Of a stretch of 64,000 nt of DNA, positions 27,928-57,336 are shown piece by piece. Below the pieces are notes generated by a model, which saw nothing but the letters and a program-made list of their open reading frames with translations, had not been told where the DNA came from and searched no databases. The stretch comes from Terriglobia bacterium (GTDB lineage Bacteria > Acidobacteriota > Terriglobia > Terriglobales > Acidobacteriaceae). The first letter of the stretch is position 1. The number at the start of each line of letters is the position of its first letter. Made by a program: the position numbers and the translations under genes. The stretch lies in assembly GCA_020073465.1 (NCBI GenBank), contig JAIQFC010000009.1:1-64000 (forward strand), read 5' to 3'.

Positions 27928-28173
27928 CTATTGCTTCGTGAATTCGGTAGGCTTCCGGTGCTCTCGAATCTGAGAGTAGCTCACGGCCAGCTCAGTCCCG
28001 AGTCCAAGTCTACCTTCGCAATCGTTCAGGGGCTCGTTGTCCAGAATGCCAAAGACCAGTTGCTTTTCCGGGTCGCAGCGCGTCACGCGTACCCACATCC
28101 ATTCGCCAATGCCTGTGGTCTCGTCGGGAAACTCAACCTTTACATAGTCACCTTGTGCGTAGAGCGGCATCAT
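27928..28173 (-). CDS. small conserved-looking hypothetical protein
   Basis: 'DYVKVEFPDETTGIGEWMWVRVTRCDPEKQLVFGILDNEPL'; stop/start overlap with the ArdC-like gene. Confidence 0.6.
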   Translation of the reverse strand: MMPLYAQGDYVKVEFPDETTGIGEWMWVRVTRCDPEKQLVFGILDNEPLNDCEGRLGLGTELAVSYSQIREHRKPTEFTKQ

Positions 28174-31475: not shown

Positions 31476-32087
31476 GTGAAAAAGACGAAAACAAGTGAAC
31501 TGCTACGTCTTGTCGAGCGGAAGCAGACCATTCGCCCCCGTGACCTAGACGGCGTTGGCATCCCGCGCAACTATCTTGGGCGACTCGTGCGCACCGGAAA
31601 GCTGCAAAAACTCGGGCGTGGTCTCTACACGACGAAAACAGCGCTGCCTTCAGAAAACTCCACCCTCCTAGAAGTAAACCAGCGGGTTCCGAAAGCCGTC
31701 ATCTGTCTTCTGTCCGCACTCCGTTTTCATGAGATCGGAACGCAACTGCCGTCAGAGGTCTGGATTGCGGTCGATGTGAAAGCATGGCACGCTTGGCATC
31801 CAATACCGGATTATCCGAATGTCAGAATTGTCCGGTTCTCAGGTAGGGCGATGCAATTCGGGGTACAAGAACATCGCCTCGGTGCAAGAACAATTCGGGT
31901 GTTTAGTCCAGCCAAGACGGTCGCTGATTGTTTTAAGTTCCGAAACAAGATTGGTACAGACGTAGCAATTGAGGCGCTTCGAGAATGTTATCGGGAGAAG
32001 AAGGCTTCAATCGATGACCTTTGGGAAGCGGCCAAGATATGCCGCGTAACAAATGTGATAAGGCCCTACCTGGAGTCCCTCCATTGA
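31476..32087 (+). CDS. AbiEi-family antitoxin / type IV TA transcriptional regulator
   Basis: 'ELLRLVERKQTIRPRDLDGVGIPRNYLGRLVRTGKLQKLGRGLYTT' wHTH start typical of AbiEi; followed by an AbiEii-like gene. Confidence 0.88.
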   Translation: MKKTKTSELLRLVERKQTIRPRDLDGVGIPRNYLGRLVRTGKLQKLGRGLYTTKTALPSENSTLLEVNQRVPKAVICLLSALRFHEIGTQLPSEVWIAVDVKAWHAWHPIPDYPNVRIVRFSGRAMQFGVQEHRLGARTIRVFSPAKTVADCFKFRNKIGTDVAIEALRECYREKKASIDDLWEAAKICRVTNVIRPYLESLH

Positions 32088-33001
32088 GTAAAGGCCCAAC
32101 GAACATCGCGGCGTCGGTTCACCAGCGTCTGTTGAATCTGGCACACGAGCGAAAAGAAGATTTTGGATTCTTGTTGACAAAGTACGCCTTGGAACGAATG
32201 CTCTTTCGTATTTCGCAATCCAAGTATCGGGATGTATTTATTCTGAAGGGCGCATTGATGTTTGAGCTCTGGACAGCGCAACCTTATCGTCCGACTCGGG
32301 ACGCGGATTTCCTTGCCACCGGCGAAAATTCTCTTGAGCGGCTGGGTTCCATCTTCAAGGAGGTCTGCGGAACGGTCGTCGTCAATGATGGGTTACGCTT
32401 CGATCCCGAAAGCGTGGTAGCTATGCGGATCAAGGAGGACGCGGAGTACGAGGGAGTGCGGGTCAGCATCGTCGGATATCTCGGGAAGGCTCGTGTCCCC
32501 ACTCAGATCGACATCGGATTTGGAGACGCCATAACGCCTGCGGTAGCAAAAATGGAATTTCCCTCGATGCTTGATTTCCCTAAAGCCACACTACTCACGT
32601 ATCCGAAGGAGACGGCCATTGCGGAGAAATTCGAAGCGATGGTGAAGTTGGGGATGGCAAACAGTCGAATGAAGGATTTCTATGACGTGCGCAGCTTGTC
32701 TCGGGCCTTTCCGTTCAATGGACGGATACTTTCGGATGCAATCCGGAACACTTTCGACAGGCGGAATACTCCGGTTCCCGGTAAAAAAGCTCCAGTTGCG
32801 TTTACCACTGAGTTCTTCGCTGACGAGAATAAGAAAAAACAATGGAATGCTTTCTGCAACAAGAACAGCAGCTACATCGCTGATACGCCTCTGGAGGGCG
32901 TTTGCTTGGAGATTGCAGGGTTCCTGATGCCAGTAGTGGAAGCCATGGGCAAGAAGGAACCATTTGATCACTTGTGGTCCCCTCATGGTCCTTGGATTTG
33001 A
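32084..33001 (+). CDS. AbiEii/AbiGii-like nucleotidyltransferase toxin (TTG start at 32084 proposed; ORF open from 32021)
   Basis: 'DVFILKGALMFELWTAQPYRPTRDADFLATGEN' NTase motif (GxxL...DxD), 'ETAIAEKFEAMVKLGMANSRMKDFYD'. Confidence 0.88.
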   Translation: MSKGPTNIAASVHQRLLNLAHERKEDFGFLLTKYALERMLFRISQSKYRDVFILKGALMFELWTAQPYRPTRDADFLATGENSLERLGSIFKEVCGTVVVNDGLRFDPESVVAMRIKEDAEYEGVRVSIVGYLGKARVPTQIDIGFGDAITPAVAKMEFPSMLDFPKATLLTYPKETAIAEKFEAMVKLGMANSRMKDFYDVRSLSRAFPFNGRILSDAIRNTFDRRNTPVPGKKAPVAFTTEFFADENKKKQWNAFCNKNSSYIADTPLEGVCLEIAGFLMPVVEAMGKKEPFDHLWSPHGPWI

Positions 33002-33130: not shown

Positions 33131-35086
33131 CTACTCAAGTGCATATACCTGTTCGAGAAGCTGTGACATCCACCCAGGCTGTCGGTTGTCCGGCGTTCCC
33201 ACAATCATGGCACGATCAAGACCCTGATTGATAGTTTCACAGGAAGTCTCAGGCAGAAGAATACAAGCGTGACAGGCGGCGAGGTTGGCTAGACGCGATC
33301 CCTGTCCACCAAGATTTTCTGAACAGACCGGATCTGCGGAACACCACGACGCGCGATTGAGGGCTCGATGTACGACGGGTCCAAGTCGGTCCGGTCTGCC
33401 GAGACGAACAAGCCCTCCCAAAGTTCCTTCCGAGTCTCCAGCCGCCGTATAGATAAGAATTCCGGCCATCGGTGCGTTCGTATCAGCGGATATATACAGA
33501 CGCTCGCGGAGTGATGCCGTGCTATATCCGCATTCGAAAACAAATTGATTGATGAGAACGTGCGCGAAGCTATGCACAAGAAGATAGCGGGAGGCCCACG
33601 ATCGGTTTGCGGGGGCGAGCGGAGGAAGCGTTTGAAATACGTCCGCCAGTCGGATAACAAACTGATCGCTCAACCGACTCCTGAGCCAGTTTGCGTTAGT
33701 GTTCTGCCAGTCATTAAGCCGATCCTCATTCAATTCGAGGTAAATGCCTTCGCCGAATACCTCGATTGCTGGCAGCCACCTTTCCTGCGCCTGATTTGGA
33801 GGATCACGAAAAAGTTGCCCCATCGCAGATGCCGGCATTCCCGACAAAAGCTGACGACTGGGTTCTAACCGATCAAAACCATAGAAAACTCTTGTCTCAC
33901 GCAAACGTTCTACCAGATTCACCTTGCTTAACCACGATACAAGGTCGTTAGGGACATCCGCCGGGATCACTCTCAGATTAGGAATTTTGTCTGGGTCGTT
34001 GACCTCGACCCGGATGACATTGAACTCAGCTCTACGGAAGGCAAGCAAGTCTGACTCGGGGATGGCGGGAAGAGCCGCGTTTGGTGCGAACGCTGCGGCT
34101 GTCCCAAGAAGACTCTCCAAAGCCTTCTCCACTTGGCCTGCTTCTCTTACCAGTCCTCGCCCTTGGAGTGACACTTGGGCTAGGGCTACCGCGCCTTGTC
34201 GATTGTTCATGTTCCAGAGGGTCTTAGCGATTCCACATGTCCCAGGGTCCTGCTCAATCTCATTTCGGATCTGGCTGACCTCTTCATCTTGTTCTTGCAA
34301 ATCTGGAAGAAGGATGGCAGAAATGGTCTTCGGAAAATAAATGTTGGTCTGATTAATTAGTGCGCCAACCAAGGGGCGGTTGCAGGTTTCGTTGGCACCT
34401 TCACCCAACCATGGCCGGTCGCCGGGACAGTTGATACCTGCCTTTTGGAAAGAACTGCGTTCACCTTCCTCTTCGTCCGGTTTCATCGTAGTGCCTGCAA
34501 GGGATTTTCCCTTACGGCCCGACGATCCGTCCGGGCAGGTAAGACACTCGATCCGGATACTCGTGAGTTCCGAGCCACCGCGATCAGTTAACCTGAGACC
34601 GTCGTCTCCCGCACACTGACACCCTATCCAGTCCTTCCACGGAAATTCGCAAAGATGTCCTGCCGCACACACTGAGATAAAACGGACAGGCTTCCATCTT
34701 CCACCACCGGGTGCTGGGTCAAGTCGCTGGGTATTCAGATTGAACCTGCGCATTTCGCCCGATCTGGTGTTGCGATACCAGCGCGGAAAACGAAGTGCTG
34801 GCACGTAGAGCTGGGCATTTGGGGGTGACGTCTGTCCCGACCGCGCTATGCGGAAGTCCGGCGGCGCACAGAATCTGCCAACATCCAGCAATGAGGCAAG
34901 GCGCGGCTCGAACCGCTCGAATTCAGAGCGATCTTGGCAGGGCAGCAAGCCGCGCGTCTGGTCCCATCGCTTGAACCAGTGATCGAGTCCACAGATCACG
35001 TGGGGCGTGCCACGGCGATCAGTGTAGATGCTGCCTGGGCCGAAAGGTGCAATGATCTGGCCTAGCCGAATTGGTCTATTTGCCAT
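33131..35086 (-). CDS. DrmB-like DUF1998 protein
   Basis: 'RLGQIIAPFGPGSIYTDRRG', 'RYLLVHSFAHVLINQFVFECGYSTASLRERLYI...AGILIYTAAGDSEGTLGGLV', C-terminal Cys cluster 'LANLAACHACILLPETSC'. Confidence 0.85.
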   Translation of the reverse strand: MANRPIRLGQIIAPFGPGSIYTDRRGTPHVICGLDHWFKRWDQTRGLLPCQDRSEFERFEPRLASLLDVGRFCAPPDFRIARSGQTSPPNAQLYVPALRFPRWYRNTRSGEMRRFNLNTQRLDPAPGGGRWKPVRFISVCAAGHLCEFPWKDWIGCQCAGDDGLRLTDRGGSELTSIRIECLTCPDGSSGRKGKSLAGTTMKPDEEEGERSSFQKAGINCPGDRPWLGEGANETCNRPLVGALINQTNIYFPKTISAILLPDLQEQDEEVSQIRNEIEQDPGTCGIAKTLWNMNNRQGAVALAQVSLQGRGLVREAGQVEKALESLLGTAAAFAPNAALPAIPESDLLAFRRAEFNVIRVEVNDPDKIPNLRVIPADVPNDLVSWLSKVNLVERLRETRVFYGFDRLEPSRQLLSGMPASAMGQLFRDPPNQAQERWLPAIEVFGEGIYLELNEDRLNDWQNTNANWLRSRLSDQFVIRLADVFQTLPPLAPANRSWASRYLLVHSFAHVLINQFVFECGYSTASLRERLYISADTNAPMAGILIYTAAGDSEGTLGGLVRLGRPDRLGPVVHRALNRASWCSADPVCSENLGGQGSRLANLAACHACILLPETSCETINQGLDRAMIVGTPDNRQPGWMSQLLEQVYALE

Positions 35087-35108
35087 ACGTGTTGATCGGT
35101 CGTCCCAA

Positions 35109-38100
35109 CTAGTATCCTTGCGTGATCGTTAACTCAGCGTTGCCGTCAACCTGTCGCATACTCGTTGGAACTGCTACCCCGCGTTGTTTCTGAACGATGG
35201 TCGCAAACTGGCCAGGCCAGAGCATTAGGTATTCCCCAGTGGTCGACGGTGGGAACTCTTCCCATTCAAGAGGGCCTTGTTCCCATTTTGCTTGCAGTTC
35301 TTGTCGAACTGCCTCCAGTTCCTGTAACGATCTCGCCTGGTCCTCAGGCAACTGAACAGCGACACAGCGATCTCGCAGCAACTCTGTCCCGGTGTTGATC
35401 GCATTTTCGTACGCCGAATAGTTTTGAACTGAGGCATCGCTGTCTTGACGGGCCCAAGCGAGGAGTGCACCCGGAAGGGCACGTCGAATCGCGGAAAGAG
35501 CGAACGGCGTAGCTGAAGTGGGTTCAACACGTTCATAGAGTCGGCGATGATAGCTGTGGAATTGTTCAAAATGAGAGCGATCACGGCTCTTTGATGGGTT
35601 ATAAATTGTGAGAATCAGTCCGGGTCGCTCATTCCAGCGCCGCCCTACACGACCGGTCACTTGTATGTATTGTGCGGTGGTTTTGGGCTGGCCCACGACC
35701 CCCATGAGTGAAAGCCGTTCGATATCGACTCCGACCTCGATAATATTGGACGCGAGACAAACATCAAGTACTTTGTTGCCGCCCTCAGTGTAGTTGGTAG
35801 AGAGTTGATCCATCATGCCTACGATTTCCGGTTGCGATAGCCGGCTCGTCAGCTCTTCGACGATTCTCAGGTTTCGCCGATCTTGTGGTGCGAAATTTTC
35901 CCTGCTGAAGATGAATTTCAACCGTGAACGAATGTCTGAATCAAAAAGTGTTTTGGCGCCTCCGAGCTCTCGGAGGCTGTTGTAGAAGACCAACAAAGTC
36001 CACCAAGCATCGCGGCGATCCGGAGGGAACGATTGTGGGCGGAAGAGGGCTGATGAGAATGCTCGTACCTGAGTCGTGAGAACGGACCCATAGTCATTGG
36101 CGTGGATTCCGAGATAGAGGCGGCCGGATAGGAGCCTTCCATCATCTCCACGCGCGTATGTGCCAAAAAACGAGTCACCCATAACCAAACCGGGGCTTGG
36201 AAAAAGCTGTGTTTGAGGTCTGGCGTAAAGGGCCTTTACTTGGTCTGCCGCACCGCGAATGGTTGCGGTTGATGCAATTAGTTTGGGTTTTATCCAAGTG
36301 TCATTAACGAAGCGAGAACAAAGACGTTCGAAAATGCCTTCGTACAAACCATACATTGTTCCCAAAGGACCCGAAATGAGATGGAGTTCATCCTGAACGA
36401 TCAATCCAGGTGGCACGTGAGTCTGATGGGCCCTTCCGTCAACGATTGTGCGGCCGAATAATGCCCCAGCCTCCGGCTTGTAAGCGATCATTGCAAATTT
36501 GTCAGCCGTGGCGATTATGAGCGAGGGCGGGTTACGGTAAATCCGTTCATCAATAACTTCGACTGGCAGCCAATCCTGCCAATGTTCCGAACCAAAATCG
36601 CAGGAACCATCGGGGCAAAGCAAGAGCGGCCCTTCGGTAGGGTGGTCATAGATGCCCTTGACGCATAGAGCTTTCCATCTATTTTGCGGTACGTTCCTTG
36701 GTTTTGAACCGTCATACCTACCGATTTCCGACCTACACCACGGACACTCCGTCAAGACGAGCGGGTTTCCGGCTGTCGGCTCTGACCGGAACGCGCTCAC
36801 TTCGGTCTTGGCTTGCGCAATCTTGTTTGGCGACGCGGTGCCGCCTATCCACAGGCCCAGAGAAAACCGTGCTCCGGGTATGGGTGCAATACTGTGTTTT
36901 GCCGGATTGCGACGCAGGAATTCCATTGCGCAGATGAGGCTGGCTGCACGCTGAAACTGCTGCGTCGTCAGCATTCTCAATGTGTAGCGCATCAATGTAT
37001 TCGTGCCGTCACGGGCAGGTACAGGTGTTTCAGGTTCCATCAAGAGTCGTTGATGGAACATATAAAACGCCATCACTGCCAGATAGGCTTCCGTCTTGCC
37101 GCCACCAGTGGGAAACCATATCAGGTCAACAACCTCTCGATCAGATGAGTTGTCGTTGCTCACGCCGTCAATCGACATCAACAGGAAAGCGATCTGGAAA
37201 GCACGCCAATAACCCAAGCTCGAAGTTTCACGATTCTGGGAAAAGACCCGCCAAGGTGAGTCGTTATTTCCTTCCGGCAATATAACCCCTGCATCTTCGT
37301 TCCAACGCAATGGTCGTCTGTTCAGCTGTTTGGTCGCGATTTGCTGGAGAAGCATTGCCAGGTTTGCGAGCTTGAAAGCTTTTCTTGCTTGCTGGTCGGC
37401 GCGCAGAATCTCTATTCCCCTATTGATGCGGTTCAAACAAGCGGTTGCAGCAAGGAGATGACGACTAGCAACGGGTCTCAAGTCAGTTGGCAGAGCATCT
37501 ATTTCCGCTCGCCTTTGGCCAATCCAACTTTGGTACTCCGTGGCCACATTCGTCAGCTTCGGCCATGCACCTGTGTCAAGAGCATCGGGCAGAGCTGCCA
37601 AGTCTCGCATTGAGAGACGTACGCGGTTACCTGCTTGGTCAGCGATATCCGGAGTCATACTCGGGGTCTGAACGGCTGGCATCACGTCTGCGTATAACAC
37701 TCTGGGTTCTTGGCCAGGCTCAGAGTCCCAACCCGCAGCGCATCCGTGTCCAATGCCCCAAGTCGCAGATTCCCTATATAAAAGGGCGAGAGACTGCTCT
37801 TCGGAATCAAGTTGCGAAAATGGCCGCTGGCTCTCCGGATATTTTTCAAAGTGCCCACCTTCGGTCACCACCTCGAAACATGTTTGATAAAGAGTTGCTT
37901 CGCGAGGGTCATTCCCTTGGGCGAGTTGGCTTGAGTTGCGAAGCACAAGTGTCACGAGCCAGACGCCATCTGCATTTTGGACACGGCGAGGATATAGCTC
38001 GAACCTTAATGCGATTGGTGAACCCGTGGGCATGGTGACGTCCCGGGGTACTACTTGTCCTGATTGGAGATCATCGCGACTGATGACAACAGTTGTATCC

Positions 38101-38738
38101 GGGCCGACTGCGGGCAATCTACGCCACATCGGGGCGTCCTTCGCGTTCCCCTGGTCGTCGGTCCATCGCCGAGTGCATTTTTCATAACGACCGTTAAGGG
38201 GAAATTCCGGAACGACTTCTCCTTGCCAGAAAAGTTGTTTCTTTCGTGGTAACGTGACGATAATTTGGCCACCTACGCTTAGGCGAACACAGAAAGAAAT
38301 TCCGATAGTCGAAGGATGCCGGATGTCCGGGCTGGTCACCTCGAAGTCATCTGAAGGATCTGCCGGATCATTTCCATCTGCGGACTCAGGTTCTGCCTCC
38401 TCACCGTCCACGTCCTCCTGGAGATCATCGGAGTCGGGCTCAATGCCGAGAGTATCGGAGGCTTGTGCCGCCTGATCCGGAGGTGGAGGTGGTACCTGCG
38501 TCCCAGGATGCAAGAGGCCAGTGCCGTATTTGCGATGGGGAATTTCGCGTTGAAAGTACAAGACCTCTTGAAGGTCAGCGGTCGGATCTGGTCTCCAGGC
38601 TAATGGGCCACTCCTTAGCGCGACTGGATCGACAAAATCGCTGCCGTTAAAGTCTATGACGACGGGTTCCGTTATGGGCCGCGAAGGACCAACCAGCTCT
38701 CCGCGAATCCAGTCAATGAGTCGAGAGCGCTCAATCAT
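35109..38738 (-). CDS. DrmA-like superfamily 2 helicase
   Basis: Walker A '[21 protein letters not shown]', motif II '[15 protein letters not shown]', motif VI-like '[18 protein letters not shown]'. Confidence 0.85.
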   Translation of the reverse strand: [1209 protein letters not shown]

Positions 38739-40456
38739 GAAAGAGCCTTTCCGGTAAACCAGCCGATCAGAGTCTTCTGCGAGCTCTTGTCACACAACAC
38801 GCGCACAGATTCGCTCGCCCTCGTCATGCCTGTGTAGAACAGATGTCGATGGAAGTCCGCTGCCCCAAGAACTACGTCAGTAATGATGACAACCTTATTC
38901 TCCAAGCCTTTGAAGGCGTGCACGGAAGTATAACCTGTGCCATCACCGGACTTCCACGCCGGGTGTAAATTGAAGCCCGTTCCTGCGAGCCGAGCCGCAG
39001 CACAATCATCGGAGTTACGGAATGAGAGAACAGTGATTTCAGAAGATTTATAGCCCTTGCTCCGAAACTCCTTCAACCACTTCGCAAGTATGTCCAGTTG
39101 CTGCGAGTCTTGCTCATAAAAAGAAATGTCATAGTTCTGAATTCCGCCGCCAGGACGCATATATCCGGAATAAACCAGCTTATCGAAGCCACTTAAACGA
39201 ACAGCCGAATCTCCAATGATTTTGTAGTTGCGACAATTCTCGGACAAACGGTAGTTTGTCGGTTTTGCGGAGGCTTGTATCGAAGCGAGAGAGTGCTCCA
39301 TTGGGCCCCGCTCTCCAAACACTTGGTTGTCGAAATCACCGAACAGACAGAACGAACCTCCAACGCCTCCATCCAAGAAACGTGTCAAACACTCCCATAA
39401 ACGTGGCCTTGCGAGCAGATCCTGCGCCTCATCAACAACAAGATAGTCGAACGAGGCGACAGCCCTAAATTCAGGGTCTGTTAGACGTTCTTCCAGTTGT
39501 TCGGGTAAATCGTGCTCCCAATAGCTCTGTGTCGGTTCTTTAGGGATGCTAAGGCCGGTCATCTCTGCCAAGATTCGGATTGCTCTGCCCACGATCAGGT
39601 TCGGAAGGATTGGAGTAGAGTGTTGGACCTGCTGTTTCATCCAGTCACCAATGAGTTGGTTAAAGCACACCAAGCCTACGCGTCGATCCGCTGCGGCCCT
39701 GCGGGCAACCTCCATCGCAATGAGTGTTTTCCCTGTGCCAGCCGGGCCATTGATAATCACTCTCTTGTTAAGCGCTGTGAGTTGAAGCACTGGTTTTTGC
39801 TGGTCGCGCAGAAGACGCTCAATCTCCTCCTCGTGACGCTGGATTTCCTCGCGGAGGCCTGACCTACGCTTTTGAACGGGGAAGCAAAAGCCAATAATGG
39901 CGTCAATCTGAGCACGAGAAAGCGGATTTGTAAGTGGCTGAAGGTTATGGTCTACCTGTATGCTCATTCGCATTTTCGCCCGGAGATCGGCACAGAAATC
40001 TTCTCCCCGAGCGAACGTGCGGAACGTGCGGCTATCCACCAATTCCCAAGGCTGAACAGAGAGGTTTGGTGACAGATCAAAACGAGCATTTGGGAATACA
40101 CAGCAGTGAACAACAGGAACATTTCGGAACTGCGGAGCTAGATCACGGAGCCGACGATAGAATGTGTGCTGGCCATCAGAGGCTTGCTTGAACGGTGAGC
40201 GCTTGATTTCTGGCGGATTCCATTGATCATTCTCGAATGAGATTGTCTCTTGAGACTTGACCTCGATGCAGAGCAAGCCGGTATCCGGCACAATAAGCAC
40301 AAAATCAATTTCGGTTCGCAGCCCGCGATTCCAAGGCGTCAAATCGAGCGAGTGCAATGCGACCCAGTCGTTGGGTCCCATGGCAAGCATGTTGAAGACA
40401 TCACGCTCGCCAGGAGGCGTTTGATCATCGGTGAATGAAGGTATCAGACGCGCCAT
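38735..40456 (-). CDS. NERD nuclease-related domain + UvrD/superfamily 1-type helicase
   Basis: N-term 'GLRTEIDFVLIVPDTGLLCIEVKS' (NERD), 'INGPAGTGKTLIAMEVARRAA', 'DYLVVDEAQDLL', 'TSVHAFKGLENKVVIITDV'. Confidence 0.88.
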   Translation of the reverse strand: MARLIPSFTDDQTPPGERDVFNMLAMGPNDWVALHSLDLTPWNRGLRTEIDFVLIVPDTGLLCIEVKSQETISFENDQWNPPEIKRSPFKQASDGQHTFYRRLRDLAPQFRNVPVVHCCVFPNARFDLSPNLSVQPWELVDSRTFRTFARGEDFCADLRAKMRMSIQVDHNLQPLTNPLSRAQIDAIIGFCFPVQKRRSGLREEIQRHEEEIERLLRDQQKPVLQLTALNKRVIINGPAGTGKTLIAMEVARRAAADRRVGLVCFNQLIGDWMKQQVQHSTPILPNLIVGRAIRILAEMTGLSIPKEPTQSYWEHDLPEQLEERLTDPEFRAVASFDYLVVDEAQDLLARPRLWECLTRFLDGGVGGSFCLFGDFDNQVFGERGPMEHSLASIQASAKPTNYRLSENCRNYKIIGDSAVRLSGFDKLVYSGYMRPGGGIQNYDISFYEQDSQQLDILAKWLKEFRSKGYKSSEITVLSFRNSDDCAAARLAGTGFNLHPAWKSGDGTGYTSVHAFKGLENKVVIITDVVLGAADFHRHLFYTGMTRASESVRVLCDKSSQKTLIGWFTGKALS

Positions 40457-42051
40457 TGCTCAACCGTATCAAGGTCAGTAATGACTTTGAGGAGGGGTTC
40501 CGGTGCGAGGAAACCTTCTTCGACAGAACGCACTTTGTAAAATCGCACTTCTCCTTGCAATGGTTTATCGGCTGGTATTGGGACCTCGAAGACGCTCCGC
40601 ATTTTCGCTTGGTTTCGGATTTCAGGCAGAGACTCATTTAGAATTACGAATAGCTCCTCATCGATGATTTCATGTTCCTGCATGCCAGTCTGAATCGCTT
40701 CGCCACGTGCACGGGCGATTTCGTTCCACGCGTACTCCCACCACTGGCGGCGCAACGCGCGGGAACTTTCAGACGCTTCGTGGTCAATCCCAAGGACGCC
40801 GACCAAGACTTGAAAGTGTCGCCTCTGTTGAGGGGCATGAATAACAGTTGACGGCGGTCTACACCACTGCCTGACGCAGGAGCGAAGATTCCTTAGTTCA
40901 ATCCCGCCTTCTCGCAATCGAGTAAGCAAGTCCTCGGGAGTGTACTTAAATTTGTCTCTGAGGCGGTCTTTCCAAATGCGACTGTAGTGTCCTTCACCTG
41001 CCCTTAATGCTCCGAGATCTGCTGTACCCAAAAGAGGCCAGATAACGAACATGTCTTCAGTGAGCGTCTCCCCTGGTAGTCTGTAACCAATCGGGTCCTC
41101 AATATCGGGGGTGGGGTCGAATGTTGCCACTTGTGAGTGGGGTGGATACAGAATTCCATCTTCCTCGTCAACTTGAACGAGAGTCGCTCTACGCATCTCC
41201 GTAGAGTGACTTAATTCATAAAAGAACCCGAGATCATCTAAATCCGGGCCTGACACGGAATCAGATGATGAATCTCCGTAGTGCGTGACATCACGGGTCC
41301 AGGAGAGAGCTCCGCGCGTGATTTGTTGATCCGCGGGTCGCGTTGAGGCTGCACCTGTTCTGGTAGCGCTACGAGAAACAGGATCGTAGCCAAAATCTTC
41401 TTCGTCCGCACAGCCCGACCAAACGATCTGAACCAAAGTAGCGAAACGCGGAGCGCTCAGAAGAGCGTCAGGAGCAGAGCCCCATCCTCTTGACCGCAGA
41501 GGCCCAACCTTTATCAGTGTTTGAAATGGATTGGCTTCTCTGTAATCCCGAACTGAATGAAGGAACGAATCCCCTGATAGAGGTGCCTCTTCGAAGATTG
41601 ACTCGAAGTGAACGCGTGACCTCCTGTGGCAATAGATCCGCCATAGTCTTCCTTGCGTCCTAAGCTGGCGAACTGTGTCGAGGATTTGCGTGCGGGCAGG
41701 ATTTTCAACGCCCTGTATGGTGAGTGCCGCTTCGCACGCGAGATCATATGCTCTCCGAATTTCTTCTCCCCACCTTTTCTCAACCGCATCGGCATCACCC
41801 AGGCCAGATATTAATTCTAGTAGGGCACCATCGAACGCAATTGGAACAGTGAGCCATTCTGACAAATGGGCACGAAGTCCATCTGCGACCTCTTGCGAAT
41901 CTGTGTCATCGCCTTCCCTAAGTCTCGAAACGATTGATCGGATACTCTTTCTTAGCGCACTGAAAACAGGAGAATGTATCTCCCGCCGTTCGATAACAAA
42001 AGAGTGGTTTTGATCGATAAAATCAAGTACTTGTGAAGGCGTTACTGGCAC
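40444..42051 (-). CDS. uncharacterised 535-aa protein of the DISARM-like operon
   Basis: Full-length ORF embedded in the operon with overlap to the next gene; no motif recognised with confidence. Confidence 0.7.
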   Translation of the reverse strand: MPVTPSQVLDFIDQNHSFVIERREIHSPVFSALRKSIRSIVSRLREGDDTDSQEVADGLRAHLSEWLTVPIAFDGALLELISGLGDADAVEKRWGEEIRRAYDLACEAALTIQGVENPARTQILDTVRQLRTQGRLWRIYCHRRSRVHFESIFEEAPLSGDSFLHSVRDYREANPFQTLIKVGPLRSRGWGSAPDALLSAPRFATLVQIVWSGCADEEDFGYDPVSRSATRTGAASTRPADQQITRGALSWTRDVTHYGDSSSDSVSGPDLDDLGFFYELSHSTEMRRATLVQVDEEDGILYPPHSQVATFDPTPDIEDPIGYRLPGETLTEDMFVIWPLLGTADLGALRAGEGHYSRIWKDRLRDKFKYTPEDLLTRLREGGIELRNLRSCVRQWCRPPSTVIHAPQQRRHFQVLVGVLGIDHEASESSRALRRQWWEYAWNEIARARGEAIQTGMQEHEIIDEELFVILNESLPEIRNQAKMRSVFEVPIPADKPLQGEVRFYKVRSVEEGFLAPEPLLKVITDLDTVEQWRV

Positions 42052-42054
42052 TTC

Positions 42055-43035
42055 TCACCTCCGCTTCAGCGCAGAAATCGTAATTCCGCCCGGCGCTTGC
42101 GGCAACTGATTTAGCAGGTCGTTGTCGGGGGCGTACCATTGCGCCAATTCTGCGATCTTAACGCCAATTGATTCGAGTCTGTCTCTTTCCAAAACGCGAT
42201 GAACCACTCCGACAATAGTGCTGTCACGAAATTCAGTAGCTTCGATCACCTTGAGAAAAGCACCATCTCCGTCTGTCACTACGACTCGTGTGCAACCGGT
42301 GGATCTGTCGATCTGACCGGTTCGCGTGTTGAAAAACGTAACTCTTGAAATGGTTCCAGGGGACCAACGCTGAATAGTGAGAAGATTGGGAAGCGCCACA
42401 ACTTGGTCTTGGATTTGGAAACGGATCGAATCTAGGATGCCCTTTGAAACTGATTCTCCAGAAACGCGACCGGCGAGGCAAATACCCGAGTCCGACTTGC
42501 TGAGGTTCGATTGCATGGGTGCCTGTGCGCCCTGAATCATTTCTCCGTAAAAGGAAGCATAGGGCAAACCCGTGCCTTGAATATTTTGCATTGGGGCTTC
42601 ACCATCAAATCGCCACTCGTTGGCATGTGACGGGAAAATGACCGTCCGCAATGGCCCATTCCTGGCTGAAGCAGTGTGTGCCCCTCGTACCCATACAAAT
42701 CCTCTTGGATCTTTGCTTTCCAGCCGAAAGCGTCCCCTGAAAGTGTCGTGACGCAAGAAGGTCTCGCATTCTCTCTGGTCCGCGAGCCGCTCCATGCGCT
42801 GGAAATGTGAGAGAGAATCGTTGGCATCAACGAGGGCGAGCCGGCGTCGCATCGCACCTAGAGCTACAAGACCAGCAGCAGGAGATTCACACGGCATTGA
42901 GACGATGGCGATTCTGCGTAGACCGGACTCCAGATCGGCCCACATAAAGCCGCACTTGATCAGGAACTCCACCCACCGTGGAATCTCCCGCCAAGCTCCG
43001 CCTGCTTCAGATATCTGTATGAGTTGTCTTTGCAA
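42055..43035 (-). CDS. uncharacterised 326-aa protein of the DISARM-like operon
   Basis: Full-length ORF overlapping vsr-like by 29 nt; 'TRVVVTDGDGAFLKVIEATEFRDSTIVGVVHRVLERDRLESIGVKIAELAQWYAPD'. Confidence 0.7.
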   Translation of the reverse strand: MQRQLIQISEAGGAWREIPRWVEFLIKCGFMWADLESGLRRIAIVSMPCESPAAGLVALGAMRRRLALVDANDSLSHFQRMERLADQRECETFLRHDTFRGRFRLESKDPRGFVWVRGAHTASARNGPLRTVIFPSHANEWRFDGEAPMQNIQGTGLPYASFYGEMIQGAQAPMQSNLSKSDSGICLAGRVSGESVSKGILDSIRFQIQDQVVALPNLLTIQRWSPGTISRVTFFNTRTGQIDRSTGCTRVVVTDGDGAFLKVIEATEFRDSTIVGVVHRVLERDRLESIGVKIAELAQWYAPDNDLLNQLPQAPGGITISALKRR

Positions 43036-43432
43036 AAAAGCGTTCCAGCTGTTTTGTCAACTTTACTTCGTCTTTTGCCTTGCAAGCCCAGATAGTCAGA
43101 ACGCGCCAACCCCCCGCTCGCAATTGCTTGGTGACCTTTGCATCGCGAGCGACATTGCTATCGAACTTGGTTTGCCAAAACCGCGTGTTGGTTTTTGGCG
43201 TTGCGGTGGATTTGCACCCGTGCCTATGCCAGAAGCACCCGTGCACAAGTAAGACAATTTTGTATTTATGCAAGACGATGTCCGGACAGCCGGGCAACGC
43301 GCGGACGTGCAAACGGTACCGAAAGCCCATTCTGCGAAGCAGCGAACGGACGATCAATTCAGGCTTAGTATTTCTGCCCCGAATTCTCGACATATTCCAA
43401 CTACGCTTCTGCTTTGAAATGCGGTCGGCCAC
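43007..43432 (-). CDS. vsr: very short patch repair (Vsr) endonuclease
   Basis: 'RSWNMSRIRGRNTKPELIVRSLLRRMGFRYRLHVRALPGCPDIVLHKYKIVLLVHGCFWHRHGCKSTATPKTN'. Confidence 0.93.
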   Translation of the reverse strand: MADRISKQKRSWNMSRIRGRNTKPELIVRSLLRRMGFRYRLHVRALPGCPDIVLHKYKIVLLVHGCFWHRHGCKSTATPKTNTRFWQTKFDSNVARDAKVTKQLRAGGWRVLTIWACKAKDEVKLTKQLERFFAKTTHTDI

Positions 43433-43459
43433 GGGCTTAATGATGCCTTGTTTGAGGCT

Positions 43460-45040
43460 TTAGGAAAAGAGGTTTAACACAATCTCCGCTATTTGGAGCG
43501 CTAAAAGAGGTGGGACAGCATTCCCCACTTGGTGATATTGAGCTGTTCGGGGGCCCATGAAGTAGTAATTATCAGGGAACGTCTGAAGACGTGCCGCTTC
43601 CCGCACGGTTAGGCTCCGGCATTGTGTGGGATCGGGATGAATGAAGTAATGGCCGTCCTTGCTGATGTGCGATGTAATTGTTGTAGATGGTCGGTGCTTT
43701 AGCTGTACTCGGAAGCGGTCAGCAAATACAGTGTCATCGTTGTCCGAGCGTCCCTTCTTTGCGTTCTTATGCGCGGGCAGAAGAAAACTTGGAAAATCGT
43801 CGAGAATCGGCGACCTGTTCCTTAATGTCGCAAAACAAGACGCATAAAAATAGCGCCAGAGGTCCTCGGGTATGTGACTTCGGGCGGAGTGATTACAGAC
43901 CCCCTCCAATCTCTCGTCAAAAAACCAATTCCGCTCCCACGCAGGCTTACTGCCACTCTTCATATACTCGCCGCCAGTGCTCAAATGATCGAGCTCGGAC
44001 GACAAATCTTCCATGACTCGACGCACGTCACGATAGGCGGGTCGCTCTAATGTCTTGTAGGTAAGGACTGCTTGGACTGCATCAGCCCATGCCTCATCGG
44101 AGTCTTGGGTTCGCGACAGGCGGCTTCGGAGGGCCGGCAAGTCCTGTATCGCTTTCCACATCGTTATTGTCTCGCGATTATCAGGAAGGTGCTTTGGCTC
44201 GATACCGATATCCGACCTGACGCCAACGAGAATCAAACGGTGACGAGCCTGCGGAACGCCGTGATTCTCTGAGCGAATAACATACTTGGCAGGATCATCA
44301 TTCGCAGTAGACCCGTTTTGCGGTTGCTCATTCGGCTTCGCCAACGAATACAGCTTGTACTCAAGTAGCCCCCCAAGTAACCCGTTCTTGGAGTCGCCGG
44401 CCTCTCGCGGATGTTGGAGGTCACAGATAATTCGCTGAATGATTTTCTTACCGTACTTCTTGGATGAAAGGAGGCCCTTGACGTTCTCCATTACAAAAAC
44501 AGGAGGACGGTGCACCGCGATGATACGAAGGTACTCCTTGTAAAGCAAATGTCGCTTGTCCCTCGCATAATGCCAAGCACTCGCACCCTTGATGCGGCTA
44601 CGGCCCACCTGTGAGTACACTTGGCATGGCGGACCACCGATTAGCACCCACGTCTTTGCTCCCCCTAGCGCGTTCCTTATCCTTCGATCCACTTCGCTGG
44701 CGGGATAGCCATCACCGCCAAGTTCCGCTTGCCACACCTCTTCTTGGGCTTTCTCTGCTTCGGCAGGAAATTCCTTAGATAACGTGGGCCAATCTACTCT
44801 TGAGGATTTTATTTGTTCATAGTACAGAGCGGGTTTTTCGCGATCTGGAAATTGTCGGAAAAAGCTACGAAGTAGCAGGGTCTCATGGGCAAAGGGATCT
44901 TTTTCAATAGAGAGAGCAATCTTGAATGCGCGATTTCCATACGAGTCGCGTAGGGCGCTGAACCCCTCTCCAAGTCCGCCCGGACCAGCAAAGAGATCTA
45001 ACACAGGAATCGTTGAGATGCCTGATGCGTATCCTCGCAT
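43460..45040 (-). CDS. C5-cytosine DNA methyltransferase
   Basis: Motif I 'VLDLFAGPGGLGEGF', motif IV 'LIGGPPCQVYSQVG', motif VI 'FVMENVKGLLS', motif X 'YHQVGNAVPPLLA'. Confidence 0.93.
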   Translation of the reverse strand: MRGYASGISTIPVLDLFAGPGGLGEGFSALRDSYGNRAFKIALSIEKDPFAHETLLLRSFFRQFPDREKPALYYEQIKSSRVDWPTLSKEFPAEAEKAQEEVWQAELGGDGYPASEVDRRIRNALGGAKTWVLIGGPPCQVYSQVGRSRIKGASAWHYARDKRHLLYKEYLRIIAVHRPPVFVMENVKGLLSSKKYGKKIIQRIICDLQHPREAGDSKNGLLGGLLEYKLYSLAKPNEQPQNGSTANDDPAKYVIRSENHGVPQARHRLILVGVRSDIGIEPKHLPDNRETITMWKAIQDLPALRSRLSRTQDSDEAWADAVQAVLTYKTLERPAYRDVRRVMEDLSSELDHLSTGGEYMKSGSKPAWERNWFFDERLEGVCNHSARSHIPEDLWRYFYASCFATLRNRSPILDDFPSFLLPAHKNAKKGRSDNDDTVFADRFRVQLKHRPSTTITSHISKDGHYFIHPDPTQCRSLTVREAARLQTFPDNYYFMGPRTAQYHQVGNAVPPLLALQIAEIVLNLFS

Positions 45041-45043
45041 GTC

Positions 45044-45385
45044 TTAGTGCCTGGCGCGTCTCTGGACGTCGCCCCAGATGTAGCGCGCTTCGTCGGTATC
45101 GATCTCTGCAAGGTGCCGGAAGTTGGGGGAGATTGACCACTTCGGCTTTCCGGTTGCGTCAGTGGCGCCAATCCGACTCTGGATGTTTGAGGCTTCGGAA
45201 TACTCAGCAAACATCCGCTGCGAAGCCCGTCGGGCAGCCCTAATCACACTCGCTTCCGAACCGTTGTGAGGCTCGACTATGGTGCCGACCTTGTTGCCAT
45301 CGCGGTCGCGTACATCCCGAACGACCACGTTGGAAAAGCTAGCGCCCAACGTATGCGTCTGTTGGTTTTTGCAGATTTCCGTCAT
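45044..45385 (-). CDS. small hypothetical protein (113 aa from MTEICKNQ)
   Basis: RBS-like AGAAGGAAAC precedes the ATG; stop 3 nt before the methyltransferase start. Confidence 0.6.
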   Translation of the reverse strand: MTEICKNQQTHTLGASFSNVVVRDVRDRDGNKVGTIVEPHNGSEASVIRAARRASQRMFAEYSEASNIQSRIGATDATGKPKWSISPNFRHLAEIDTDEARYIWGDVQRRARH

Positions 45386-45401
45386 CCAGTTTCCTTCTTG
45401 G

Positions 45402-45644
45402 TTAGTCAGCGATTGAAATGTCGAAGCCAAACTTCTGCAAAATCCTGTATGCGTCTTGGGAAGTGATTTCGATCGCGGGTACAGTAGTAGCAGCCGCGAC
45501 AATCTGACGGATGGGGAAGCTCTTTCCATTCAGCACGACGGAGTACTTTTGAATTCGCCCCGGAGACATTCCTCTTGCAACGGAGACGATGTCTTCTTTT
45601 CGCAGGTCGAATGTCCTGCCTCTAAGCGTGAATTTCACGCTCAT
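45402..45644 (-). CDS. small standalone protein resembling the ScoMcrA-type N-terminal head domain
   Basis: 'FDLRKEDIVSVARGMSPGRIQKYSVVLNGKSFPIRQIVAAATTVPAIEITSQDAYRILQKFGFDI'; strong SD AGGGAGG. Confidence 0.55.
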   Translation of the reverse strand: MSVKFTLRGRTFDLRKEDIVSVARGMSPGRIQKYSVVLNGKSFPIRQIVAAATTVPAIEITSQDAYRILQKFGFDISIAD

Positions 45645-45756: not shown

Positions 45757-46728
45757 TCATCCACGGATTTCAGCCGCAACACTGAGGTTGCATTGCTGCT
45801 TTTCGTTGTCGAAACCCTCTACGGCAACGATTTCTGAGACAGCGCGTTGGCCCCGGACGCGCCCTATGTGAACCAAAAGATCTACGGCGCTCCCGATGTT
45901 CGCCATGATCGCCCGGTGCGGTAATTCGATCCCACTCTGCAAAACGCAATCCGCGAATCGAGTGACAGCTTGGCGGGCAGAATTGGCATGGAGCGTACAG
46001 AGACTCCCTGCGTGTCCTGTGTTCAATGCTTGGAGCAAATCGAAGGCTTCCCCGCCACGCACCTCGCCCACGATGATTCTGTCCGGCCTGTGGCGCAGCG
46101 CCGCCTTCAACAAGTCGCGGACCGTCACGGCTGGCAATCCGGTCTGTTCGCGGCGGGTTTCAAACCGCACGAGATTGCTCTTGCGAATGTTGAGTTCCGC
46201 CGTGTCTTCAATAAGGAGAATCCGTTCATCATCCGGAATGGAATCAGCAAGAATATTCAGAAGGGTAGTCTTTCCACTGCCCGTACCTCCGCTGATGAGG
46301 ATGTTTTGACGGCTGCCGACCTTCTCGCGGAGCAATATGGCGGTTTCCTGGCTGAGGGTCCCGTTTTCGATAAGGTCAGCCATAGTGAAGTGTCTGGTGT
46401 TGAATTTACGGATTGTGAGGGTAATTCCGTCAATACTGCACGGTGGGAGCACTGCGGCCACGCGGCTCCCGTCTGGCAGGCGGGAATCCAAGATCGGCTT
46501 CTCTTCGGAGATATCGTCCCCCAACCGGCGCGCAATGTTGCGCACGGCGGCGTTAAGCGCTTGCTCCGAAATGGCAATGCCTGGAACCTGAGTGAGCTGG
46601 CCGCGCCGTTCAATGAAGATCTGAGACCCGGCGTTCACCATGATTTCCGAGATGTCTGGGTCCAGAATGAGATGTTCTATTGGCCGCAGAAACGGCAGTA
46701 TCGTTTCAAACTGCATCGCTTTCCTCAC
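45757..46728 (-). CDS. VirB11/TrbB-like T4SS ATPase
   Basis: 'NILISGGTGSGKTTLLNILADSIPDDERILLIEDTAEL', 'GEVRGGEAFDLLQALNTGHAGSLCTLHANSA'. Confidence 0.93.
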   Translation of the reverse strand: MRKAMQFETILPFLRPIEHLILDPDISEIMVNAGSQIFIERRGQLTQVPGIAISEQALNAAVRNIARRLGDDISEEKPILDSRLPDGSRVAAVLPPCSIDGITLTIRKFNTRHFTMADLIENGTLSQETAILLREKVGSRQNILISGGTGSGKTTLLNILADSIPDDERILLIEDTAELNIRKSNLVRFETRREQTGLPAVTVRDLLKAALRHRPDRIIVGEVRGGEAFDLLQALNTGHAGSLCTLHANSARQAVTRFADCVLQSGIELPHRAIMANIGSAVDLLVHIGRVRGQRAVSEIVAVEGFDNEKQQCNLSVAAEIRG

Positions 46729-48749
46729 AACAACCCACGGGCGATCTGGTCAAAATAAGAAACATTCGGGTCGAGGTAATACGGTTTCAAGTAGCAGAGT
46801 GTCGCCGGCATTGGATTCAGACCGTCATATGGAAGTACGACTGCCTGCGCGTTGGCGAGTTCCGCCAGAAACTTCTGGCTGAATCTGTAATCGAGCCTCA
46901 CGCTGTAGCTTTTGGAAGCGCTGATGCTACCTCGGTCTGAAACGGTTTTACCCGTCAACAGGCTCAGTTTTGAATCCTGCCCAGATTCGGAGATGTTGTA
47001 GGTCACGAACGGCCTGTCCTCACGGCCACACAATTCGCTAGCGAGTCTGGTTGAGAAATCGTCGGCAAGGGCCAGGAATATCTTTGTGCGGAAGGTTTGG
47101 AGAAGCGTCCTGTAGCTGTCGCCGGAGAGCGTTGATTTCAACGAACTGATGCTCTGTGTTGCGACAATGGGGATACATTTCGATTGCCGTGACAAACTGA
47201 AGAACTTTTCGTCGCCGATTGGATCACTCTCGCCGACTGTGGCAAAACTCTGGTATTCATCACACATCAAGAAGACTTGCCGGAAATACCTTTCCCGATC
47301 GCGCTCCATCTCCGGTATTCGGCCCAGAACTGCCCGCTGAAAATCCAACTTGAGCATCGTTCCGAGAATTCTGGCGAGACTGGCATTCAAGGAAATTGGG
47401 AAGTTGAGGGCGCATATCTTTCCGTGCTCGATCAGCCAATTGAATGACGGAAAGGGTTTGCCATAGGGGAAGGTGCCGTTCTCATTGGGGACGTTTAGTG
47501 CTGGATCGTACGTTTGCTTGGGCGGGCAGAAAATCCGCTTCACCGCGGGATTGATGTCGAAGAGCGAGAGAAAAATAGAAACACCTTCGACAATCGAGCT
47601 GCGCAACTTCCTTTCCAGCCCCATCCAGTCGTCGAAATACCAGCGCTTTACGGCTTCCAATTGCTGCCGCTTGATGTCGTCCAGATCGGAGGAAGCCTCG
47701 ACGGTGAATCTCTGGCATTCGAGAGCAGTTCCTTGCTTGCCGAGCAGTTCTTCCAATCTGACCGATACCGGGGCCTTGTACATCCCTTTGGCCTCGTCAT
47801 ATGCAAATACGAATTCTGCAAATGTGCTGGCGAACTTTTCGTTTCCATAGACCTCGGGGGCAACGCAGACGTACTCGCGAGTCTCGAATCTGGCCTTTCC
47901 CTCCTCAATTCTCTTCTCTAACTTCAGGGGTGAGATCGCGCACTCGTAAACATCAAAGAACGTCACATAATCGTAGAGCACCTTGTGCAGCAGAATGATG
48001 TGCTGAAGCATATTGGTGTAAGCCTGCTGCCAGAATGGTTCTTTGCCATGTCCGTACAAATTGTTTAGCAGCGAAGCCACGCTATAGGCTAAAGCTGATG
48101 AATCCAGGTCGCTGTGCAGAGGGTTGTAGCGGTAGTCGGAATTCAAGGCGATTTCCACGTAGTCGTCCTCGCGGTCATGCTGTCGGGCAATCTCCCGAAT
48201 CTGGTGGCAGAAATCTCCTTTGACCTCCAGCACGAGCCCGCCAATCCGTTTGGCCGGCTCATCAGCTTTAAATGCGATGAGCTGCTCGGCAAATGGACGC
48301 ATACAGCATGTTGTTTTTCCCGTTCCAACTGCCCCGAACACTCCAATGCCGGTAAACAATCCTTTTTCTGGAATCGTCAGCCATTGCGGCTCGCTGGCGG
48401 GACTGATTCTTGTCGGGTGATGAATCTCTCCGACGACAAGGAACAGATCGTCCCTGAATTTTGGGTCGGGATACAGCGGAAGGGGATTCCGCTTCTGTTT
48501 CCGCTTCCGAGCAAAACTCAATACGTAGATCCCCGAGAAGGCAGCGGAGTAGATGAAGAACGGCGTGCTGAACAAGAACAGCGTGTAGCTCCCCGCGAGA
48601 ACCGAGTAAACGAGCGGGTCTCTGAGGGCCACGTATTGCAGGTACAGGTTGCCCTGGGGAAATGGACACATAGTGAACAGGATGAGTCCGGTCATGCCGG
48701 CAAGAACCAAGCTCACAAACGTCCGCGAATTGGCGATTTTCTCCAGCAT
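46725..48749 (-). CDS. VirD4/TraG-like coupling protein
   Basis: N-terminal TMs, 'GVFGAVGTGKTTCCMRPF', 'VFLMCDEYQSFA'. Confidence 0.85.
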   Translation of the reverse strand: MLEKIANSRTFVSLVLAGMTGLILFTMCPFPQGNLYLQYVALRDPLVYSVLAGSYTLFLFSTPFFIYSAAFSGIYVLSFARKRKQKRNPLPLYPDPKFRDDLFLVVGEIHHPTRISPASEPQWLTIPEKGLFTGIGVFGAVGTGKTTCCMRPFAEQLIAFKADEPAKRIGGLVLEVKGDFCHQIREIARQHDREDDYVEIALNSDYRYNPLHSDLDSSALAYSVASLLNNLYGHGKEPFWQQAYTNMLQHIILLHKVLYDYVTFFDVYECAISPLKLEKRIEEGKARFETREYVCVAPEVYGNEKFASTFAEFVFAYDEAKGMYKAPVSVRLEELLGKQGTALECQRFTVEASSDLDDIKRQQLEAVKRWYFDDWMGLERKLRSSIVEGVSIFLSLFDINPAVKRIFCPPKQTYDPALNVPNENGTFPYGKPFPSFNWLIEHGKICALNFPISLNASLARILGTMLKLDFQRAVLGRIPEMERDRERYFRQVFLMCDEYQSFATVGESDPIGDEKFFSLSRQSKCIPIVATQSISSLKSTLSGDSYRTLLQTFRTKIFLALADDFSTRLASELCGREDRPFVTYNISESGQDSKLSLLTGKTVSDRGSISASKSYSVRLDYRFSQKFLAELANAQAVVLPYDGLNPMPATLCYLKPYYLDPNVSYFDQIARGLL

Positions 48750-48755
48750 GGCAAC

Positions 48756-49061
48756 TCACCTTTTCGAGGCACTCATTGGGAGACTCTTGTCCACCGATTG
48801 AGCAGTCCCGTTGTGATTCTGGTCTGTCGGCACGCGCCTGCGTGGACCACGCCGTGGTTGCGAATCATTCTTGTGCAGTTCGTACCAAGGCTTGAATTCG
48901 CCGTCGCTTTGGAACAAGAATTTCAACGCGCCCGAAACTACTTGGTCATTCGTAGCGCCGCTGAACCGGCAATAGGCACGCAATGTCTCTTGCACGTCGT
49001 TTTCAATTGCGGCTTTGATCTGAGACCTGGATTGCTTTTTCTCGACCTGAATAATTGGCAT
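48756..49061 (-). CDS. small DNA-binding-like (possible RHH/mobilisation accessory) protein
   Basis: 'IENDVQETLRAYCRFSGATNDQVVSGALKFLFQSD' is RHH-like; adjacent to the coupling protein. Confidence 0.5.
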   Translation of the reverse strand: MPIIQVEKKQSRSQIKAAIENDVQETLRAYCRFSGATNDQVVSGALKFLFQSDGEFKPWYELHKNDSQPRRGPRRRVPTDQNHNGTAQSVDKSLPMSASKR

Positions 49062-49085
49062 CTTCTTCTCCTTTTGACTTCAGCT

Positions 49086-49169
49086 ACGGTACTGCGGGGA
49101 GCGGCCTCCGAAGCCGGTCACGGGCACGCCGCGCTAGGCGGCGGGCGGGGTCGCTCCCCGCAGTACCGT
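49086..49169. repeat. 18-bp perfect inverted repeat ACGGTACTGCGGGGAGCG...CGCTCCCCGCAGTACCGT with GC-rich 48-nt loop
   Basis: Arms 49086-49103 and 49152-49169. Confidence 0.85.
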
Positions 49170-49222
49170 TGCACTTGACCTTGTGTTTGTCTTTGCAACC
49201 ACGTTTGGAATCTCCATATGTT

Positions 49223-50284
49223 TTAAGCCCCTTGTGCACTGCTATCCCGTTCCGCAAGCTGGGCGGATGATTGGGCGGCTTCCCCGACCGCAGATGGAGC
49301 GAGCCGCCCAAGGTTCGGTACCACAAGGAATGTTTCAAAATGCACGCCAGGACTACTGATCTCGGCCCCCCAGTCGATCTCCGGCAACTTTCCTGTTTGT
49401 TTCCAGTTTTGGTATTGACTTTCGTACTTGGCCTCGGAGTACCGTTTGATCCCACGTTGCCACTCAATTACCTCTCGGTGGGCGAGTTCTTTGAAGCGCT
49501 TTTCTTCGGCCATCTTCCGCAGCCTGAAAAACGTTGCAAGGTGTCTTTGTTCCCGCTGGCGCTCGGTTCGTGACAAAGCCTGAGTGAATACCTCTCTCGC
49601 GGATGAAAAGCTCGTTGTGGAGGTCGAGACGAATATCAATTTGAAACTGCCGCTCAAAGCATCAAACAAAGCCCGATACCTCTGGATGAAGGAAGCAAAG
49701 GTTTGTAAAGAACGAATGTCGTCCTCGATGTAGGTGAAATTCGTAAGCGATGTCGATGCGTCCCCTGAGATAAATATTGGAAACTTCTCAACGAAGTAGC
49801 GACGCGTTTCTGCCCCCGTCTGTCCGCGAAAGAGTTTCCCGGGCAAGGCATCTGGACCAACGTGTTTCGCCTCGGCGAAATAGGAAACTTTGTCGGTCTC
49901 TTTTTCGAGGAATTGGCAGTCGAGATGTGACAACACATAGTCCAAGCCCAGGACTCTTACAGCTGCCTTTTCCAACAGTCCGTAGCGCCCCGGTTTACGG
50001 TGGCGAGAATTCTCGTTCCCGAGTGCGGCGTAGATCGTGCGTGAGAACAGGTGGTAAATCTTCTGGGTGCCGCGCTCGGGCAGGTGTTCCCGCACGTGCT
50101 GTTTCTGGATGGCTTTCTTGAGGAAATACGTCGCGGGACCTCGGCCAGCAACATCCACAAACTGCATGAACTGCCGTTGAAGGAAGAAACCCGAATGCAC
50201 GGCCACGACGTACAGAAACTCCGCCTCTCGCGGCGTGTACCCAAATTGCGTTAGGGCTGCGATGGCCTCTGGACGAATTCTCAT
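49223..50284 (-). CDS. replication-relaxation/mobilisation family-like protein
   Basis: 'ALTQFGYTPREAEFLYVVAVHSGFFLQRQFMQFVDVAGRGPATYFLKKAIQKQHVREHL' wHTH typical of ICE mobilisation proteins. Confidence 0.55.
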   Translation of the reverse strand: MRIRPEAIAALTQFGYTPREAEFLYVVAVHSGFFLQRQFMQFVDVAGRGPATYFLKKAIQKQHVREHLPERGTQKIYHLFSRTIYAALGNENSRHRKPGRYGLLEKAAVRVLGLDYVLSHLDCQFLEKETDKVSYFAEAKHVGPDALPGKLFRGQTGAETRRYFVEKFPIFISGDASTSLTNFTYIEDDIRSLQTFASFIQRYRALFDALSGSFKLIFVSTSTTSFSSAREVFTQALSRTERQREQRHLATFFRLRKMAEEKRFKELAHREVIEWQRGIKRYSEAKYESQYQNWKQTGKLPEIDWGAEISSPGVHFETFLVVPNLGRLAPSAVGEAAQSSAQLAERDSSAQGA

Positions 50285-51117: not shown

Positions 51118-51120
51118 TGC

Positions 51121-56254: not shown

Positions 56255-56287
56255 TGTCCTCGACATTGCCAGTTGGTTGCGTGACTG

Positions 56288-57060: not shown

Positions 57061-57075
57061 TTCAGGATGTGACTT

Positions 57076-57327: not shown

Positions 57328-57336
57328 GAGATAGCA

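Follow-up and report, generated by a model that had tools for sequence, protein, structure and literature searches.

DISARM class II, as set out by Ofir in 2018, reportedly comprises DrmMII, DrmE, DrmA, DrmB and DrmC. In the class I system of Serratia, whose DrmAB pair has been solved (7s9v/7s9w), DrmA carries a trigger loop, 5' overhangs are preferred, and the system is sensitive to methylation, with 5-methylcytosine (5mC) lowering the DrmAB ATPase (PMC9142583). DrmC is required by the PADLOC definition of DISARM type II (PMC9252829), and yet it is dispensable and often missing, so the nuclease of DISARM is unsettled (PMC9142583). Further afield, a 2025 preprint on YprA-family helicases (Bell 2025, PMC12458937) describes TALON, which has a NERD nuclease, and ARMADA, which has a Vsr-type nuclease domain, and it reports that many classes within the DISARM-like clade are still uncharacterised; a DISARM-like cassette associated with McrBC is also on record (PMC12458937; eLife 2024). 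In this article we describe a nine-gene locus on the minus strand, at positions 33131 to 45644 of a 64,000-nucleotide (nt) stretch of DNA (the window) from a Terriglobia bacterium of the Acidobacteriota (GenBank assembly GCA_020073465.1, contig JAIQFC010000009.1, positions 1 to 64,000), and this locus is a recurring form of the DISARM defence for which we found no earlier account. It is probably a class-II-like DISARM, carrying out DISARM-type restriction, in which DrmE is encoded by two genes, DrmC is absent and a NERD-UvrD nuclease-helicase is built into the cassette.

With class II the window locus shares DrmA, DrmB, DrmE (here as two genes), a C5-cytosine methyltransferase of the DrmMII kind and the operon context; it differs in having no DrmC, a split DrmE, a NERD-UvrD gene between DrmE and DrmA and an added Vsr, and also in that its DrmA scores below the threshold set by NCBI and the database models recognise neither half of DrmE. 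Because PADLOC type II requires DrmC, and no such phospholipase-D protein is present in the window locus, the match to class II is not exact. An earlier sequence-only reading of this DNA had recognised neither DrmC nor DrmD/SNF2 among the operon genes, and we find the same; it would have counted itself refuted had its two unassigned proteins been ordinary DrmE and DrmC in an exact match to a named subtype. DrmE is indeed there, in split form, but the exact match fails on DrmC. Class I is distinguished by DrmD (SNF2) and the adenine methyltransferase DrmMI, and neither is among the operon genes, although the window shares with Serratia DrmAB the DrmA/DrmB pairing, the helicase motifs and an acidic loop at the trigger-loop position, its DrmA having a shorter N-terminus. 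ARMADA and TALON share a YprA-family helicase with the window, but here DUF1998 is a separate gene, the helicase groups with DrmA, PglX and BrxHII are absent, NERD is fused to a superfamily 1 (SF1) helicase and Vsr is free-standing. The suggestion of a DISARM-related array (ARMADA) falls on the separate DUF1998 gene and the missing PglX and BrxHII, whereas that of a DISARM subtype holds, as a variant in which DrmA and DrmB are joined by a 5mC methyltransferase, a NERD-UvrD helicase and Vsr. TALON itself does not apply, the helicase being DrmA and the operon giving no TPR-CSD or TBP family match, and nor does Druantia type II (DruM with the large DruE helicase), for which the only trace is a DruE match of E 7.5e-4 confined to a small part of DrmA. 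PADLOC's RTasNERD-Hel and C3a187 are NERD and UvrD fusions of similar length, but these names refer to other contexts, whereas the window NERD-helicase is fixed between DrmE and DrmA. In the searchable literature we found no description of a split-DrmE/NERD DISARM variant, and NERD appears there together with DISARM or DUF1998 only in the 2025 preprint, where it belongs to TALON (PMC12458937).

The core of the locus can be named directly. DrmA (35109..38738; 1209 amino acids, aa), a superfamily 2 (SF2) helicase of the DISARM clade, matches PADLOC DrmA at E 6.7e-198 and 7s9v_A at E 2.6e-123, and scores 813 bits against NCBI DISARM_DrmAS, under the 950-bit equivalog cut-off; its Walker A motif is invariant in 70/70 relatives, and the core residues of DEXH and motif VI are invariant or nearly so. 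DrmB (33131..35086; 651 aa), a DUF1998/MZB zinc-binding canopy protein, reaches 380 bits against NCBIfam DrmB_fam (cut-off 240) and E 2.5e-61 against 7s9v_B, with five cysteines invariant in 68/68 relatives. The DISARM core of a DrmA helicase with a separate DrmB gene, which the sequence-only reading had recognised, is therefore borne out by both the solved pair and the DISARM models. Residues ~80-142 of the window DrmA are acidic and poorly conserved (32% D/E, 2% K/R), and an alignment in which the window protein from residue 116 pairs with the Serratia protein from 209 places this segment, apparently collinearly, at the Serratia trigger loop, residues 176-232 (PMC9142583).

The two proteins that had been left unassigned are indeed absent from the libraries, the 535-aa, 326-aa and also the 113-aa window proteins having no match in PADLOC, Pfam or NCBIfam, but rather than replacing DISARM parts the first two together make up DrmE, the hallmark of class II. 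For the 535-aa protein (40444..42051, GTG start), assignment to the C-terminal half of DrmE is firm on profile comparison: the NCBI DrmE family model matches members of its family over the model's second half, and against eleven full-length single-gene DrmE proteins collected as a reference, the family profile matches nine at E 7e-19 to 3e-32 over DrmE residues ~320-830 and the remaining two weakly, while profile-profile alignment (hhalign) with DrmE gives E 4e-34. The 326-aa protein (42055..43035, TTG start) is well supported, if not proven, as the N-terminal half; residues 73-315 of its family align by hhalign with DrmE 72-312 (E 7e-5, score 45, probability 63-77%), against control scores of at most 18.8 for forty block-shuffled profiles, 10.7 for the reversed profile and 26 for the NERD family. 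The two matches meet at the point where DrmE is cut, and the window halves sum to 861 aa, compared with ~840 aa for DrmE. Iterative profiles run over the open reading frames (ORFs) of the collected loci gave 76 members of the 535-aa family and 75 of the 326-aa family, and not one ORF holding both; in a Priestia megaterium plasmid (L040) the C-terminal half is itself split, into ORFs of 206 and 278 aa. Single-sequence tblastn of either protein against plasmids returned no match, and the 535-aa protein searched against 61 relatives matched only in the window's own genome, such searches being blind because the families are too divergent. AlphaFold2 models (pLDDT, the predicted local distance difference test, 92 for DrmE-N and 88.6 for DrmE-C) predict for DrmE-N an alpha/beta fold without a P-loop motif, in which a strand-loop-helix with an invariant P48 stands where the RecA fold has its P-loop, and no GKT motif is present. 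Foldseek gave no significant match for either half (best PDB E 0.024 and 0.0037; DrmE-C in BFVD E 0.015), its weak matches pointing inconsistently to SF2/SNF2 helicase folds, and searches of both families against PDB sequences with hidden Markov models gave nothing credible; an inactive or degenerate helicase-like fold for DrmE may at most be taken as a lead.

Between DrmE and DrmA lies the NERD-UvrD fusion (38735..40456; 573 aa), a PD-(D/E)xK nuclease domain joined to an SF1 helicase, in which, as the sequence-only reading had it, Pfam recognises NERD (E 2.8e-12) and UvrD_C_2. Its nuclease residues D51, E65 and K67 are kept in 66-67/67 relatives, and the SF1 helicase motifs likewise. We collected more than 90 loci by DrmA-based searches of plasmids and of one genome per species. 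The query was made from this clade and the counts rest on its best 80 hits, and they are therefore a description of the clade rather than of frequencies in nature. In 49 loci DrmE-N, DrmE-C, the NERD-helicase and DrmA stand in fixed order and strand, the NERD-helicase gene translationally coupled inside the core, with DrmB next wherever the contig allows, and 21 further loci, mostly in Bacillota and cyanobacteria, have DrmE-N, DrmE-C and DrmA without the NERD gene. The five-gene cassette spans about a dozen phyla, its hosts including Pseudomonadota, Acidobacteriota, Chlorobiota, Gemmatimonadota, Actinomycetota, Thermodesulfobacteriota, Planctomycetota, Chloroflexota, Nitrospirota, Myxococcota, Armatimonadota and Kiritimatiellota, many of them metagenome bins for which single phylum assignments may be wrong. 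DrmC is found beside DrmB in none of the split-DrmE loci. On a FastTree DrmA tree the split-DrmE loci all group together in a single clade (support 100), which adjoins loci with a fused DrmE that also have the NERD-helicase between DrmE and DrmA; the split maps as a single change and the presence of the NERD-helicase as six changes. The window belongs to a 12-member subclade across four phyla, a spread that suggests horizontal transfer. Three plasmid loci of Azospirillum, Shinella and Rhizobium (L034, L035, L037) have a different order, UvrD-type helicase, DrmA, DrmB, NERD-helicase, and make up a separate DrmA clade (support 100). McrB-like genes lie less than 10 kb from the cassette in L113, L119, L120, L074, L110 and L038, with an McrC-like gene also in L113; such neighbours occur in a minority of loci only, and may represent the tie between a DISARM-like cassette and McrBC that the literature mentions.

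The methyltransferase and Vsr behave differently from the core, and are exchangeable satellites of the cassette, found at either end of it and on either strand. The window methyltransferase (43460..45040; 526 aa) has DrmMII as its best PADLOC match (E 4e-84) and matches PF00145, in agreement with the 5mC methyltransferase of the sequence-only reading, and its conserved PC and ENV motifs are general for 5mC methyltransferases; the T:G mismatch endonuclease Vsr (43007..43432; 141 aa, GTG start), also named there, scores 142 bits against TIGR00632 (cut-off 98), and its D51, C66, H69, C73 and W109 are invariant in 25/25. A methyltransferase lies inside the fetched stretch of ~40/50 NERD-containing loci and Vsr in about half. 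The seven-gene order methyltransferase-Vsr-DrmE-N-DrmE-C-NERD-DrmA-DrmB recurs exactly once in the sample, in Noviherbaspirillum galbum, with a methyltransferase ~29% identical to the window's over part of its length. In 11 NERD-containing loci an HhH-GPD glycosylase adjoins the methyltransferase, as a separate gene in L042, L068, L073, L075, L090 and others, and as the N-terminal part of a single ORF ending in the C5 methyltransferase in L079:9907-12057, L080:3248-5173 (minus) and L081:3119-5143 (minus), the fusion being confirmed by Pfam in L079 and L080. Because two unrelated mismatch-type repair enzymes fill one place, a role for Vsr here in repairing deaminated 5mC fits; another possibility is gene stabilisation, the function proposed for Caulobacter VsrA, by which Vsr can keep a solitary 5mC methyltransferase gene stable (PMC12907096). 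A link between the NERD-helicase and mismatch-repair enzymes (27/41 versus 1/12, Fisher p 6e-4) comes down to just two independent tree contrasts, and for this reason we do not claim it.

Put together, these parts would allow the following course of events. The C5 methyltransferase would mark host DNA, and DrmA-DrmB, restrained by the acidic trigger loop, would load onto phage DNA with single-stranded 5' ends, its ATPase being damped by host-type 5mC, provided that the properties of Serratia DrmAB carry over to the window system. The DrmE-N/DrmE-C pair may be the subunit that senses or scaffolds, the NERD-helicase, likely the DNA-destroying effector, would degrade phage DNA once unwound, and Vsr would repair the T:G mismatches arising from 5mC deamination; the roles of DrmE and Vsr are proposals by the same reasoning. 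Several observations weigh against this account: above all, the 21 same-clade relatives that keep DrmE-N, DrmE-C, DrmA and in part DrmB do without the NERD-helicase and without DrmC, and a constant substitute nuclease was sought in their neighbourhoods and not found; the methyltransferase is missing from the fetched stretch in ~1/5 of NERD-containing loci, some of these stretches being short; and the homology of DrmE-N is weak at the sequence level. Given those 21 relatives, the NERD protein is not the family's only way of working, and one might suppose that NERD-UvrD has an accessory part in processing or loading, supplying for example single-stranded DNA for DrmAB, while DrmAB translocation and any host nuclease stop the phage, as recruitment of host phospholipase-D nucleases has been proposed for DISARM (PMC9142583). 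We regard this as rather doubtful, for the active-site residues are kept almost throughout and the gene is coupled within the core of 49 loci.

A separate question is whether the locus is one system at all. A solitary Dcm-Vsr pair could merely lie beside a DISARM-like core, the core telling self from non-self without the methyltransferase and Vsr perhaps only stabilising the methyltransferase gene. The variable position, strand, sequence and presence of the two genes, the low and partial identity to the Noviherbaspirillum methyltransferase, the precedent for Vsr stabilising a solitary gene (PMC12907096) and a second C5 methyltransferase-Vsr pair in the window genome (G000 contig C16 88697-90773) all speak for such independence, but the frequency of a 5mC methyltransferase near the cassette, the definition of class II DISARM with DrmMII and the lowering of DrmAB ATPase by 5mC (PMC9142583) make it unlikely. 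That the window simply holds an ordinary class II system with a mis-called or broken DrmE, through a frameshift or sequencing error between the ORFs, would agree with the summed length of the halves, yet it is contradicted by the recurrence of the same split, with both halves intact, in ~70 loci of many phyla that form one clade and include no ORF with both, and we give it almost no credence. Decay into a silent remnant on a conjugative element is very improbable as well: DrmE-N and DrmE-C do start with TTG and GTG, and no sigma-70-like promoter was found upstream of the operon on its strand, with matches not above those in shuffles, but all ORFs are full length with catalytic motifs intact, and the core proteins are 48-77% identical to those of the nearest relative, L053. 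The class-II-like DISARM with its built-in NERD-UvrD thus remains our preferred reading.

All nine ORFs of the sequence-only reading were recovered at the same positions. The first two are an 80-aa protein (45402..45644) with weak SCO5918_fam similarity (NF038312, 28.6 bits, cut-off 60), whose ATG at 45644 is preceded by a good ribosome-binding site, AGGGAGG, and a 113-aa protein (45044..45385) of the same transcription unit. From the 80-aa gene to DrmB the junctions are gaps of 16, 3 and 27 nt, a 29-nt overlap, a 3-nt gap between DrmE-N and DrmE-C, overlaps of 13 and 4 nt (the latter of the ATGA type) and a 22-nt gap between DrmA and DrmB, a packing so tight (29-nt overlap to 27-nt gap) that a single operon is plausible. 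The nine-gene order, whose conservation the reading had proposed to survey, is not kept elsewhere, whereas the five-gene core strictly is; since the 80-aa and 113-aa genes have no convincing relatives in ~110 related loci, the conserved unit has five to seven genes, not nine. Type IV secretion genes adjoin the operon on its upstream side (T2SSE-type ATPase, 45757-46728; coupling protein, 46725-48749), and the operon therefore probably sits in a conjugative element. The wider region 45757-60079 encodes T2SSE/VirB11-type, TraD-type coupling and VirB4/TraG-type proteins, the first and last being ATPases. On the other side are an AbiEi/AbiEii type IV toxin-antitoxin pair (31476-33001, plus strand), convergent with the drmB end, a 497-aa protein with an Mrr-type restriction nuclease domain (PF04471; 29689-31182, plus strand), a further defence candidate, and an ArdC-N anti-restriction protein (28170-29438, minus strand) adjoining the defence genes.

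It is possible, though we say so tentatively, that these loci represent a distinct and widespread DISARM class, defined by a two-gene DrmE, a NERD effector as the missing DISARM nuclease, and a 5mC methyltransferase with Vsr or an HhH-GPD glycosylase. Others have probably come across parts of the clade before, because the preprint mentions uncharacterised DISARM-like classes and an McrBC-associated cassette. Neither the PADLOC nor the NCBIfam models recognise the window DrmE halves, and for that reason split-DrmE systems are probably called too rarely or recorded as incomplete DISARM. For the family as a whole, the natural split of DrmE means that its two halves can be expressed separately, and the NERD nuclease-helicase, which holds its place between DrmE and DrmA in many phyla, is a direct candidate for the enzyme with which DISARM destroys phage DNA.

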